Part shown: positions 28,744 through 35,488 of the stretch, piece after piece
Position numbering within the stretch: position 1 is the first letter of the stretch
Layout of the letters: every line of letters begins with the position of its first letter
NCBI RefSeq assembly: GCF_013362815.1
Contig: NZ_JABFVK010000016.1
Location: 1-64,000, forward strand
Direction of reading: 5' to 3'
Source: Hamadaea sp.
GTDB taxonomy: Bacteria; Actinomycetota; Actinomycetes; Mycobacteriales; Micromonosporaceae
DNA: 64,000 nt
Program-made: the position numbers and the translations under genes
Notes under the pieces: generated by a model
Told to the model about the DNA's origin: nothing
The model's database searches: none
The model's input: the letters and a program-made list of their open reading frames with translations, nothing else

Positions 28744-28787
28744 AGTCGACAGCTGTCGACTCTCGGATGTTGTCGGGTATCTATATT
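28744..28787 (+). promoter_or_regulatory. 18-bp perfect palindrome and -10 region before the two-gene proline-rich locus
   Basis: AGTCGACAGCTGTCGACT at 28744-28761 is a perfect palindrome. It is followed 20 bases later by an AT-rich block with a -10-like TATATT (28782-28787). The palindrome would overlap or precede the -35 region, as expected for a repressor site. It is the only strong palindrome in the 191-base gap upstream of 28822. Confidence 0.55.
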
Positions 28788-28821
28788 ACCTGGTTGCCTA
28801 GGTTGTCGAGGCGGAATCATC

Positions 28822-29550
28822 ATGGCTCATATGACCGATCCGCAATCCATGGCGGCGCAGCGCGCCAAGTGGCGGAAGTACTTCGAGCAGATCATCACCG
28901 GTCCGGACGGCGAGGTCGAGGCGGCTGCAGACGGAGCCATGGAGGCCATCGCCCGGCGAGCCGATCAAGCCGGAGTGATCGCCGCCGGCCGGGCTGCGGC
29001 TGCCGAGTACCGGGCCAACGGCGGGCGGCGCAAGCCGTCGATGCCGCCGCCTGCGGCGCAGCCCCGGCCGGCCGCTGCCGCACCGCCATCCCGACCGCAG
29101 GCGGGCCCGGCTTACGCGTACGCCCAGCCCGCGGCGGCACCCACGGCCCGACCGGCCGCCGCGCCGAACGCCCGCTCGGTGGGCAACGGGCGCAGCGGGG
29201 TCGTGACCGGGCTCCAGCAGCGCCAGGAGATGGCCGGTCGGACGTACTTCCAGGTCTGGAACTTCCGCCTGGAGCGCCGGGACGCCCAGGGCGGTCCGCT
29301 GCCTCCGGTGCCGGTCGAGATGCGAGCCCGGTCGTTCCGGGGTCAGATCGCCAACGGCGACGTGGTCGAGATCCCCTCGTCGAGCCGCCCGATGCGGCTG
29401 AAGAATCTGACGACGGGTGCGACGGTGAAGGCGCGTGGACGCCCGCACCCGTTCCTGCGTGGTGTCGGCCTGACGTTGTTCCTGATCCTCTTCGTGTGCG
29501 TCGCGATCTTCATCGTCGCGAACATCATCGAGATCCAGGGCTCGCGATGA
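28822..29550 (+). CDS. C-terminally membrane-anchored protein with a recurrent beta domain
   Basis: A 242-residue protein. It has an N-terminal helical, charged region (about 1-70, MAHMTDPQSMAAQRAKWRKY), a Pro/Ala-rich linker (72-128), then a compact beta domain (about 130-205) with TYFQVWNFRLERRD, PVPVEMRARSFRGQIANGD and NLTTGATV. One membrane helix LFLILFVCVAIFIVANII lies close to the C-terminus. The topology suggests a tail-anchored protein with its bulk in the cytosol. I recognise the beta domain as recurrent in actinomycete proteins but cannot name it. Its stop overlaps the next start (ATGA), so it is made together with the large proline-rich protein. Confidence 0.68.
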   Translation: MAHMTDPQSMAAQRAKWRKYFEQIITGPDGEVEAAADGAMEAIARRADQAGVIAAGRAAAAEYRANGGRRKPSMPPPAAQPRPAAAAPPSRPQAGPAYAYAQPAAAPTARPAAAPNARSVGNGRSGVVTGLQQRQEMAGRTYFQVWNFRLERRDAQGGPLPPVPVEMRARSFRGQIANGDVVEIPSSSRPMRLKNLTTGATVKARGRPHPFLRGVGLTLFLILFVCVAIFIVANIIEIQGSR

Positions 29551-32063
29551 CCGACCCGTTCGGCGGGATGCCGCCACCCATGCCACCGCCGGAGCCGCAT
29601 CATCCGGATCCGCCGCCCCCGCCGTCACCGGATCCGGGCATGGTGCCGCCGCCGATGCCGCCCGACCCGGGCCATCACGATCCCGGTTTCTTCGACCCGG
29701 GGTTCCACGATCCCGGCTACAACCCGGCGTTCGATCCGAACACGATGACGCCGCAATACATGCCTGATCCCAACATCGGCTACGCGCCGCTCGACCCACC
29801 CGCATACTTCCCCGATCCGCCTGCGTACGCGCCTGATCCGCCCGGTTACTTCCCGGATCCGCCTGCGTACGCGCCCGATCCGCCGGCGTACTTCCCGGAC
29901 CCGCCACCGGTCGACAATGGGCTGGCCGGACTCGGCGACCCGTACGCACCACCGGAGCCGCCGGGCTTCGAGCCGTATATCCCGCCCGAGCCGCCGGGGT
30001 TCGCGGACTACGTCCCGCCCGAGCCGCCAGGGTTCGCGGAGTACATCCCGCCCGAACCGCCGGGGTTCGCGGACTACATCCCGCCCGAACCGCCGGGCTT
30101 CGAGCCTTACACACCTCCCGAGCCACCCGGGTTCGCGGACTACGCTCCGCCGGAGCCACCCGGGTTAGACATCGAGTCAGGGGACGCTCGGGACGCGTTC
30201 GCGCCGACGGCTGCGGCCGGTGGTGGGCAGGCTTCGCCGATCCTGAACTTCGGCATTCCGGAACATCACGCCGAGGAGACGATCACGTCCGTGAGCTATC
30301 AAGCTTCGGACTTCCAGCCGCAGCGCGACGGCTCCCCGACGACCAGGATCGTCGAGATCAACGACGGCCCGAACCACTACACGGCGTACATCACGTCGTC
30401 GCTGGACCCGACGGGACAGGTCATGACGATCTCGATCACCATGGGTGGCGAGGCCGCCACGGTCGTGATCCCGGCGGCAGCCGCTCACGACGTCACCATC
30501 ACCGTCGAGCATTCCCACGATCAGGGGAAGGCGGCCGACGTCATGGTGTCGGCTCCGTTCCCGGTGGCGATGGACGTCCACAGCAGCAAGGATGTGACGG
30601 TCATCCCGAACATGCCGTCGGGTCCACCCGCGCCACCAGATCATCAGCCGGCCGGGCCACCGGCCGATCATCACGACAGTCACCACGGTGGTCAACACCA
30701 CGGAGCCGCCGAGCCGAAGCCGGACGACCATCAGCCCGAGAAACCGGCTGAACCCAAACTGACGCCGCAGCCCGAGCAGCCGCCGGCCCAGCCGAATCAG
30801 CCGCCGCAGCCAGAGCAGCCGCCGCATCCGGCGAACCCGCCGCAGCCAGAGCAGCCGCCGCAGCCGGCGAACCCGCCGCAGCCCGAGCAGCCGCCGCAGC
30901 CCGGGAGTCCGACACAACCGACGCAGCCCGCGCCGGACCAGCCCGGGATCGACCCGAGCCTGCTGCCGCCGATGCCGCACCCGGCCGACCCGAACATGCC
31001 GAGCCTGTCGGACCTGTTGCGGCCCGACCCGCCCAAGACCGGTTTCGAGGGTCAGCTGGCTCAGGGCCACCCGTTCGAGGTGCCGGTCCGCGTACACTCC
31101 GATGTGGACGTAAGTCGGATCACCTGGCTCAATCACGCGCCTGCGGACCTGCACCGTACGCGGTTCGAAGTGGTCGGAGATCCATCGGCGCACGTCACCG
31201 CGGACGAGCCGACCTATCGGCTGACGGTAGATCCCGCCGCGATCATGCCGGTACGCGATCCGCAGACCAAGGAGCTGTTGGGCTATCGGATGCGACGCGG
31301 CGACACGATGTTCTCGTTCGATCGCAACGGCCGGCTGACCAACGCCGGGAACCGTGAGTCGCCGCTCATGGCGCCCAAGGCGGACCCGATCGACGTCATG
31401 ATGATCGCCGTCGACCTCGGCCCGATCGCTGCGAAGGGGTTGGCCGCGAGTGCCGAGGCCATCGCCGCCACGTTCGCCAAGCAGGCTCCGAAGGTCGCCG
31501 GTGAGTTCGTGCGAGGCCCGACGATCGCCCGCTTCGGCGCGGATGAGGTCGAACTGCTCAGCGAGTACTGGGAGGGCCGGCTGGCCAAGGAGACCGATGC
31601 CGACCTGCGCCATCAAGCGGAGCAGGCGCTCAAGGCCCTCAACGAACGTGGCCGCGTACGCGACTGGAGTCAGTCGGAGCAGGAGGTCGCGCACATCTAC
31701 CAGCAGATCGGCGGCAAGGGTGAGAGCGCCGAGATGTACCAGGCGGCGGATGGAACCTGGAAGGTCACCAAACCCGACTTCTCCGGGCCCAACGTCCGAG
31801 GGGAGGTCAAGAACTGGGAGACGGTCCACATCAAGTCCGAAGACAGCGCGAACAAGCTGATCGACCGGCTCGCTGCGCAGGTCAAGGCACGCAACAATCT
31901 GCCGGGACCGGCGAACATCCCCGGGCGTACACAGCAGACAGTGGTGCTCGACCTGCGTGGTCAGGCACTGTCCGAGGACAACCTGCAGACGATCGGGCAC
32001 GTGCTGGCCGAGCGTACCGGGCTCCCGGTGGAGAACATCCAGCTCATCGTGTGGGACAAGTAG
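29547..32063 (+). CDS. Large proline-repeat protein with putative C-terminal nuclease-like domain
   Basis: An 838-residue protein without a signal peptide. Residues 1-130 are Pro/Asp/His-rich with DPPAYFPDPPAYAPDPP-type repeats; 135-207 hold six or seven PPEPPGFxxYx repeats of about 11 residues. A beta-rich domain covers about 230-358. A His-rich stretch and PQPEQPPQPANP repeats follow (360-480), then a second beta domain (about 495-605). A helical segment leads to a C-terminal domain (655-838) ending QLIVWDK. That domain has D744-x8-E753-V-K755 and DLRGQ, resembling a PD-(D/E)xK nuclease core, as in polymorphic toxins. No immunity-like gene follows. The function is unproven. Confidence 0.65.
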   Translation: MTDPFGGMPPPMPPPEPHHPDPPPPPSPDPGMVPPPMPPDPGHHDPGFFDPGFHDPGYNPAFDPNTMTPQYMPDPNIGYAPLDPPAYFPDPPAYAPDPPGYFPDPPAYAPDPPAYFPDPPPVDNGLAGLGDPYAPPEPPGFEPYIPPEPPGFADYVPPEPPGFAEYIPPEPPGFADYIPPEPPGFEPYTPPEPPGFADYAPPEPPGLDIESGDARDAFAPTAAAGGGQASPILNFGIPEHHAEETITSVSYQASDFQPQRDGSPTTRIVEINDGPNHYTAYITSSLDPTGQVMTISITMGGEAATVVIPAAAAHDVTITVEHSHDQGKAADVMVSAPFPVAMDVHSSKDVTVIPNMPSGPPAPPDHQPAGPPADHHDSHHGGQHHGAAEPKPDDHQPEKPAEPKLTPQPEQPPAQPNQPPQPEQPPHPANPPQPEQPPQPANPPQPEQPPQPGSPTQPTQPAPDQPGIDPSLLPPMPHPADPNMPSLSDLLRPDPPKTGFEGQLAQGHPFEVPVRVHSDVDVSRITWLNHAPADLHRTRFEVVGDPSAHVTADEPTYRLTVDPAAIMPVRDPQTKELLGYRMRRGDTMFSFDRNGRLTNAGNRESPLMAPKADPIDVMMIAVDLGPIAAKGLAASAEAIAATFAKQAPKVAGEFVRGPTIARFGADEVELLSEYWEGRLAKETDADLRHQAEQALKALNERGRVRDWSQSEQEVAHIYQQIGGKGESAEMYQAADGTWKVTKPDFSGPNVRGEVKNWETVHIKSEDSANKLIDRLAAQVKARNNLPGPANIPGRTQQTVVLDLRGQALSEDNLQTIGHVLAERTGLPVENIQLIVWDK

Positions 32064-33720: not shown

Positions 33721-34395
33721 ATGACGGTACGCGTCCTCCTCGCCGACGATCAGCCGCTGATCCGCAGTGGCTTCCGGGCGTTGCTGGAGGCCGAAGACGA
33801 CATCGTCGTGGTGGCCGAAGCGGCGGACGGCGCGGAGGCGCTGGCGTTGGTGCGGGACTGCCGTCCCGACATAGCGCTGGTCGACGTGCAGATGCCCGGC
33901 ATGGACGGCATCGAGGTGACCCGGCGGATCGCGGCCGACCCGGAGCTGGCCGGAGTGCACGTGGTCATCCTGACGAACTACGGCCGCGACGAGTACGTCT
34001 TCGACGCGTTGCGAGCCGGTGCGGCGGGCTTCCTCGTCAAGGACATCGAACCCGAGGACTTCCTGCACTCGATCCGGGTCGCGGCCCGAGGTGACGCGCT
34101 GCTGGCCCCGTCGATCACGCGCCGCCTCATCGACCGATACGTCACCGAGCCACCCCGTCGAGAGGCTGACGCGACGTTGAAATGGCTGACCAACCGGGAA
34201 CGCGAGGCAGTCCTCTTCGTCGCGAAGGGACTGTCGAACGACGAGATCGCCGATCGCATGGTGATCAGTCCGGTGACCGCGAAGACTCACGTCAACCGGG
34301 CGATGACGAAACTGCACGCCCGCGACCGCGCACAGCTCGTGATCATCGCGTACGAGACGGGCTTGGTCACTCCGCGTACGGTCGGTTTCGAGTAG
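33721..34395 (+). CDS. NarL/LuxR-type response regulator
   Basis: A 224-residue regulator. The receiver domain starts MTVRVLLADDQPL, with the phosphorylation site at D55 in IALVDVQMPG, the Thr-type switch in VVILTNYGRDEY and Lys in GFLVKDIEPEDF. A LuxR HTH (NREREAVLFVAKGLSNDEIA and VSPVTAKTHVNRAM-like recognition region, here VISPVTAKTHVNRAMTKL) lies at about 160-215. It is co-transcribed with the kinase upstream. Its 3' end overlaps the convergent PrsW-like gene by 29 bases. Confidence 0.92.
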   Translation: MTVRVLLADDQPLIRSGFRALLEAEDDIVVVAEAADGAEALALVRDCRPDIALVDVQMPGMDGIEVTRRIAADPELAGVHVVILTNYGRDEYVFDALRAGAAGFLVKDIEPEDFLHSIRVAARGDALLAPSITRRLIDRYVTEPPRREADATLKWLTNREREAVLFVAKGLSNDEIADRMVISPVTAKTHVNRAMTKLHARDRAQLVIIAYETGLVTPRTVGFE

Positions 34396-35488
34396 GGAGA
34401 CGGTGTGGGGTCCAGCCCCGGCTGACGCGTCCGACCAGTTGCGGGGGAGTCGACTTGCGCGCCATCGCCCGGAACAGCAGGTACATCGCGATGAAGAGAA
34501 TCCAGCGTCCCAGCTGAAGCAGCAGCGTCACGCTCGGCTTTCCACAGCCGAGGGTGGCGGACGTGTCGTTCAGCGAATGGATGACCATCACCATGGCGAT
34601 CGCTGCGATGCCGCCCCAGAGTCCCTTGCGGCCGATGCCCTTCTGGTCGGCGTACAAGTGCCAAAGCCGCCAGGCGATTGCCGCCGCGATGCCGGTCCAG
34701 AACCAGTGCAGCGGTGAGACGGTGAAGATGCGCGTGATCTGGGCGGCGACGACGGAGTTCACGGTGGGCGTCGCGGTGTCGTCGCCACAGAAGTCCGGAC
34801 CGGACGCGTTCGCCGTCGCGAAGGCGTACTGCGTGGTCTCCGCGATGGCGAAGCCGAACCCGGCGGCGAGGCCGATGGCTATGCCCGCTCGCGGATCGCG
34901 GTATTTGCCGAGCGCGAAGAGCGCGAGCGGGACGAGCAGCTTGGTGCCCTCTTCCACGAAGCCGACGGTCTTCGTGGCGAGGCCGGTGCCGGCGGCGTCG
35001 ATGAGCCAGCTGTTGATGTTGGCGGCGAGCACGAGCGTCGCGCCGCCGACCGCCGCCGCCACGGCGGCGACCTGGCCGAGGCCGATGACGTCGTCGAGCG
35101 CGAGCTGGCGGGCGACGAAGCGGTAGAACGCCCAGCACACGCCGGTCATCGCGAGGAAGCTGACGACCGCGATGACGCCGGTCGACTCCGACGCCCGGTA
35201 CGCGACCACGCCGAGCCCGAGCACGACCAGGGCGGCGAGCGCGATCCAGGCCCATCGTCCCCAGAATCGGCCGCGGAACCAGCGTCCCCGATCGGCGGCG
35301 ACGTCACCCGGTTGCGTCTGCGCGGTCCAGGCGCGCTCGTCCCACCTGCGCGATCGAGCCTTCGCGTACGCCGGGTCGGGGAACCATCCGGCGGGCGGCG
35401 TTCCCGGCCGATCGGGTGCGATCCGGTACGCCACCAGCAGTCCTACCGCCAGCAGCAGGAGGCCGAACGCGTCGACGAGGTACGCCAT
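34367..35488 (-). CDS. PrsW-like glutamic intramembrane protease with DUF2510-type N-terminus
   Basis: A 373-residue membrane protein with about nine helices. The PrsW/CAAX-like motifs are in order: VEEGTKLLVPL (the double Glu), GFAIAETTQY, HWFWTGIAAAIAW, and HSLNDTSA, which are the presumed active-site Glu and His residues. Near the N-terminus the cytosolic segment GWFPDPAYAKARSRRWDERAW matches the short DUF2510 motif, common in actinomycete membrane proteins. PrsW proteases cut membrane-bound anti-sigma factors. No anti-sigma gene is near, so its target is unknown. Confidence 0.85.
   Translation of the reverse strand: MAYLVDAFGLLLLAVGLLVAYRIAPDRPGTPPAGWFPDPAYAKARSRRWDERAWTAQTQPGDVAADRGRWFRGRFWGRWAWIALAALVVLGLGVVAYRASESTGVIAVVSFLAMTGVCWAFYRFVARQLALDDVIGLGQVAAVAAAVGGATLVLAANINSWLIDAAGTGLATKTVGFVEEGTKLLVPLALFALGKYRDPRAGIAIGLAAGFGFAIAETTQYAFATANASGPDFCGDDTATPTVNSVVAAQITRIFTVSPLHWFWTGIAAAIAWRLWHLYADQKGIGRKGLWGGIAAIAMVMVIHSLNDTSATLGCGKPSVTLLLQLGRWILFIAMYLLFRAMARKSTPPQLVGRVSRGWTPHRLPTRNRPYAE

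Follow-up and report, generated by a model that had tools for sequence, protein, structure and literature searches.

In a 64,000-nucleotide stretch of the genome of the actinobacterium Hamadaea sp. (family Micromonosporaceae; contig NZ_JABFVK010000016.1, positions 1 to 64,000), hereafter the window, two plus-strand open reading frames (ORFs) are joined by an ATGA overlap. The smaller encodes a 242-residue protein with a single hydrophobic helix at its C-terminus, and the larger an 838-residue proline-rich protein whose last domain is, by homology, a nuclease of the toxin family Tox-REase-10 (Table 1). The coupled arrangement and the tail anchor had been proposed in a preliminary description of the locus and are borne out here. 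Codon-position composition is of the coding type in both frames, with a G+C content at third codon positions of 0.86 and 0.83, compared with 0.85-0.88 in neighbouring genes. The two sets of proline repeats reported earlier in the large protein were re-counted and stand as described, and the protein also holds a 6-residue QPEQPP/QPANPP tract. The 18-bp perfect palindrome upstream of the pair, which had likewise been singled out, is exact, but in a first-order Markov simulation the mean count of palindromes this long or longer is 1.3 per window, which leaves a single one within chance. Its 16-bp core has zero occurrences in the related loci fetched. As a special regulator site the palindrome was rejected, being no commoner than chance allows.

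The assignment of the C-terminal domain rests on direct homology to known toxins. Searches of Pfam and NCBIfam with the whole proteins and with the C-terminus gave no match above cut-off. On the other hand, tblastn against plasmid records matched the C-terminus to LXG type VII toxins of Bacillus and to a Listeria record (E 1e-6 to 5e-4), including, at E 2e-5, LXG toxins followed by Imm70; the matching Bacillus toxin combines LXG with PT-TG and has an Imm70 gene after it. Tox-REase-10 is defined by the motifs E, Q, [DE], ExKNY, R and DxRG and is partnered by Imm70 or Imm54 (Zhang et al. 2012, PMC3482391). The corresponding residues in the window protein are E711, D744, E753-V-K755-N756-W757, Q778, R782 and D802-L-R804-G805-Q806, with W in place of the published Y after ExKN. 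These positions are kept across a 22-row alignment spanning six phyla (Bacillota, Bacteroidota, Pseudomonadota, Spirochaetota, an acidobacterial metagenome-assembled genome (MAG) and Actinomycetota), in which two or three partial rows stop short of the first conserved E. D744, E753 and K755 lie where the preliminary description had placed them and are retained in the 22 sequences, position 744 as D or E, and the nuclease-like C-terminus that it proposed is upheld by homology to Tox-REase-10 toxin ends. A structure model of low confidence (mean predicted local distance difference test score, pLDDT, 56) runs helix, four strands, helix, strand, helix, strand, an order that places D744 immediately ahead of a strand, E753 and K755 in the strand that comes next and Q778 in the helix after that, as in PD-(D/E)xK enzymes; Foldseek with this model gave no match better than E 0.05 and was not used. 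Judged from its sequence, the domain thus belongs to a described nuclease-toxin family, and nuclease activity of the large protein is predicted accordingly.

The window protein nonetheless differs from published members of the family. Actinobacteria are not in the published phyletic list of Tox-REase-10 (PMC3482391), no Imm70 was found, in a search whose controls were silent too, and the toxin carries no type II, type V or type VII secretion system end. Compared with the LXG effectors of Bacillus and Listeria, whose C-terminal nuclease domain is homologous at 26-30% identity, it has proline repeats rather than LXG, and its partner is a membrane protein rather than an immunity protein; Pfam returned no LXG or WXG N-terminal domain in it, while detecting LXG in a positive case. 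No assayed member of Tox-REase-10 was found in the open-access literature searched. YxiD, an Ntox50 RNase of the BECR fold (PMC12700104), was ruled out as a characterised relative, as its fold and residues differ, and the passages of PMC8321402 that bear on the LXG toxin of pBS32 give nuclease results for chromosomal toxins only. A scan of viral contigs with the first alignment gave no match, and PADLOC and PHROGs scans of both window proteins gave nothing useful.

Whole-genome searches of 251 family genomes (with sequence) and 399 order genomes (with profile) recovered a full homologue in one other genome, that of Catellatospora vulcania, also of the Micromonosporaceae; the same species is among the matches of a degenerate C-terminal pattern scan of 84,980 species represented by one genome each. 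Its large gene encodes 822 residues at 59% identity and its small gene is 51% identical, in reversed order, with the large gene followed by a 137 bp gap and then the small gene. At the level of sequence, the partnership is therefore conserved in two genera and in both gene orders. The last 350 residues are 74% identical between the two species, with a ratio of nonsynonymous to synonymous substitution rates (dN/dS) of 0.22, and their codons are evidently under purifying selection, whereas the repeat-rich N-terminus is far less conserved. Otherwise the whole-protein search gave weak matches (L002-L004), which were left aside, and one (L007) that falls across the frame of an esterase and was judged a chance hit.

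The C-terminal half of the protein also travels separately from its N-terminus. Residues 480-838 recur at approximately 50% identity in a Bryobacteraceae MAG (locus L021), where they lie behind the eCIS_core domain (DUF4157; E 2.8e-30) of an extracellular contractile injection system (eCIS) toxin. In Catellatospora the pre-toxin plus nuclease cassette, taken as residues 487-838, recurs at 74%. Since the same cassette stands behind eCIS_core in one setting and behind proline repeats in the other, the pre-toxin plus nuclease unit has at least two N-terminal ends, and its N-terminal end is exchanged, as is typical of polymorphic toxins. The window toxin is unlike the eCIS_core toxins in two respects: Pfam finds no eCIS_core domain in it, although it does in L021, and it is not located with contractile injection system (CIS) genes.

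The small protein is predicted, in a model that is weak overall, to comprise a confident three-helix N-terminus, a disordered linker, a beta domain of low confidence and a membrane helix. Relatives of its beta domain and transmembrane (TM) helix, here termed beta-TM proteins, occur on plasmids of Streptomyces, Embleya and Rhodococcus and in other actinobacterial genomes. (Two records filed as plasmids, NZ_CP030101.1 of Listeria at 2.9 Mb and NZ_CP108785.1 of Embleya at 5.7 Mb, are chromosome-sized.) Within the window's order, genomes of family f8 have the beta domain inside Ser/Thr kinases, just before a TM helix, which is consistent with a cytosolic beta domain in the small protein.

In seven actinobacterial loci (six listed in Table 1, together with the contig-end fragment L016/L051), obtained by sampling rather than by census, a beta-TM relative is encoded directly upstream of a HerA/DUF87-type ATPase gene of approximately 1,050 codons where complete. 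A repeat-rich protein is encoded right after the ATPase in six of the seven, and its C-termini, read by eye, differ from locus to locus. The L063 protein closes with a segment that resembles, by motif and with no Pfam match, a nuclease of the GIY-YIG type, that of L044 with a globular-looking segment to which no family was assigned, and L062 shares a middle domain with the product of the gene after next in L045 (41% identity). A genome of the window's own family, G024, has on each of two contigs a TM protein with an N-terminus that a profile search relates to that of the small protein (E 1.7e-6 and 7e-4), the pairwise comparison being not significant; downstream lie HerA-type genes and genes for proline-rich proteins. 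One of its loci encodes a proline-rich protein with a domain also present in the second eCIS_core toxin of L021 (E 3e-16), and the other ends in a D..EVK segment resembling the PD-(D/E)xK core. These loci resemble the window pair in setting a homologous beta-TM protein beside a repeat-rich, effector-like protein, and differ from it in their C-termini and in their HerA ATPase; the HerA query P0008 matched G024 and one other genome (G005) but nothing in the window's genome or that of Catellatospora. Beta-TM proteins also occur in contexts without HerA (L064, L065 and L073).

Table 1. Features of the gene pair in the window and of related loci (positions without a locus name are those of the window).
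Feature	Location	Strand	Description
Palindrome	28744..28761		Perfect, 18 bp, upstream of pair; possible operator, not above chance
Small gene	28822..29550	+	242-residue tail-anchored protein
Three-helix domain	28840..29016	+	Small protein residues 7-65; confident part of model
Beta domain	29191..29439	+	Residues 124-206; common to proteins beside HerA ATPases
Membrane helix, C-terminal	29449..29544	+	Small protein residues 210-241
Large gene	29547..32063	+	838-residue putative effector
DPPxYxP repeats	29793..29897	+	Five, 7-residue; residues 83-117
PPEPPGF repeats	29949..30167	+	Seven, 11-residue; residues 135-207
Beta-rich segment	30234..30626	+	Residues 230-360; by sequence; 39% in Catellatospora
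Second proline-rich tract	30684..30986	+	Residues 380-480
Pre-toxin region	31005..31505	+	Residues 487-653; common to Catellatospora and Bryobacteraceae eCIS_core toxin
Arm before nuclease	31506..31661	+	Residues 654-705; common only to two closest homologues
C-terminal nuclease domain	31662..32060	+	Residues 706-838; Tox-REase-10 type
PrsW-family intramembrane protease gene	34367-35488	-	PF13367 E 3e-17; DUF2510-like segment
eCIS neighbourhood	L021:2652-11753		Two eCIS_core toxins, AHH nuclease, CDC48-like AAA ATPase, Pvc16 protein
CIS locus of window's genome	G000:C99:114323-125964 (L078, L079)		Sheath, CIS_tube, hub, baseplate J
Beta domain in Ser/Thr kinase	L057:859-2985	-	Directly before TM helix
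Beta domain in Ser/Thr kinase	L060:436-2352	+	Directly before TM helix
HerA locus	L042:7016-11731		Beta-TM protein, HerA/DUF87 ATPase, repeat-rich protein
HerA locus	L043:7007-12388		Beta-TM protein, HerA/DUF87 ATPase, repeat-rich protein
HerA locus	L044:6968-12176		Beta-TM protein, HerA/DUF87 ATPase, repeat-rich protein
HerA locus	L045:6686-14297		Beta-TM protein, HerA/DUF87 ATPase, repeat-rich protein
HerA locus	L062:8278-13800		Beta-TM protein, HerA/DUF87 ATPase, repeat-rich protein
HerA locus	L063:5000-10966		Beta-TM protein, HerA/DUF87 ATPase, repeat-rich protein
HerA-type loci of G024	L049:1414-9184 and L050:1220-9176		Two-TM protein, HerA-type ATPase, proline-rich proteins
Beta-TM small proteins	L064:2035-5189, L065:8905-13412		Near PP2C-like, von Willebrand A-like and kinase-like genes, repeated-SVDP proteins

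We consider it probable that the large gene encodes a polymorphic-toxin-type effector and the small gene its unusual membrane partner. The effector would run from a disordered proline-repeat N-terminus through a beta-rich segment and a pre-toxin region to a PD-(D/E)xK nuclease of Tox-REase-10 type, which would cleave DNA or RNA inside a rival bacterium. The small protein would be anchored in the cytoplasmic membrane through its C-terminal helix, and its other two domains, three-helix and beta, would lie in the cytosol. It would bind the toxin by the latter's repeats or N-terminal region at the inner membrane face, retain it and pass it on for export or for release upon a trigger; we infer this binding, the membrane topology and the target of the toxin. 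The preliminary description had left the choice between a toxin-like effector and a surface or cell-pole scaffold: homology of the toxin domain speaks for the effector, and nothing was found for the scaffold. Its further statement that the protein fits no described class holds for the N-terminal region, for the pairing with a membrane protein and for the lack of a detected immunity gene, but not for the toxin domain, which fits Tox-REase-10. Several observations weigh against the effector reading. The exact pair is seen in two species, between which the toxin end is conserved and not variable; a known export domain, a signal peptide and an immunity gene were all looked for and not found; the structure model of the C-terminus is weak, and a PDB sequence search with two alignments gave no solved relative. 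The Imm70 search of the window's genome and Catellatospora gave no match, its controls being equally silent; it covered Imm70 and not Imm54, and was blind to unknown immunity families.

Chief among the alternatives are a nuclease for abortive infection that acts within the producer, and a CIS cargo. In the former, the nuclease would stay in the producing cell, where the small protein would keep it inactive at the membrane until phage infection or membrane damage set it free to kill that cell or arrest it. The lack of a detected export signal or immunity gene and the membrane location of the partner would suit such a role, as would the HerA ATPases near the partner's relatives, which match HerA models of a defence library. 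Neither window protein matches that library, however, and the other occurrence of the cassette is in an exported-toxin setting, so that we regard internal defence as rather unlikely, if the strongest of the alternatives. Less probable still is that the toxin is cargo loaded into a CIS encoded elsewhere in the genome. A compact locus with sheath, CIS_tube, GPD hub and baseplate J genes is indeed present on contig C99, correcting an earlier view of the genome as CIS-free that was based on missing Pvc16_N; it is adjoined by two near-identical ORFs starting MTTEWAVVPLAEQFTLNAENTGELKFSVTNPGA. The eCIS_core toxin of L021 carries the same cassette, and eCIS toxins often lack immunity genes (PMC8213781), which would fit none being found here. 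Yet CIS delivery is possible at most, because the toxin is on another contig (C123), unlinked to the CIS genes, and is without eCIS_core; in Catellatospora toxin and CIS genes share a contig but are 250 kb or more apart, and a CIS leaves the membrane partner unexplained.

Two other readings concern the neighbouring proteins. The small protein might serve the nuclease as its own immunity protein or antitoxin, dedicated to it alone: the two genes are adjacent in both known cases, the small protein would be made first by translational coupling in the window, and its gene directly follows the toxin gene in Catellatospora. Such a role is unlikely, to about the same degree as CIS delivery, because the beta-TM family elsewhere accompanies HerA and unrelated third-gene repeat proteins and hence is not nuclease-specific; the small protein is also unlike Imm70. 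We give very little credence to processing or export of the toxin by the PrsW peptidase encoded approximately 2.3 kb downstream of the pair. PrsW is a described toxin-processing peptidase, but in the described cases it is a fusion, while here it has a gene of its own on the other strand, with a two-component system in between, and none was noticed beside the Catellatospora copy (ORFs read by eye); it was rejected as a partner on these grounds.

With this pair, a toxin nuclease family gains an actinobacterial member whose N-terminal end is of an unrecognised kind, and one pre-toxin and toxin cassette proves common to a contractile-injection toxin and a membrane-paired protein. More tentatively, and with less than even confidence, the pair may represent a branch, lacking the motor, of a polymorphic-effector system of actinobacteria that has yet to be described. 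Such a system would consist of a tail-anchored beta-domain protein, a repeat-rich effector whose toxin C-termini can be exchanged and, usually, an ATPase of HerA type, and would hold toxins at the inner membrane and export or release them. No description or name for loci of this composition was found in the open-access literature searched, although absence there is no proof of novelty. The partner protein leads to a set of actinobacterial loci, each with genes for a TM protein, a HerA ATPase and a repeat protein, that have the look of a system for delivering toxins or for defence.
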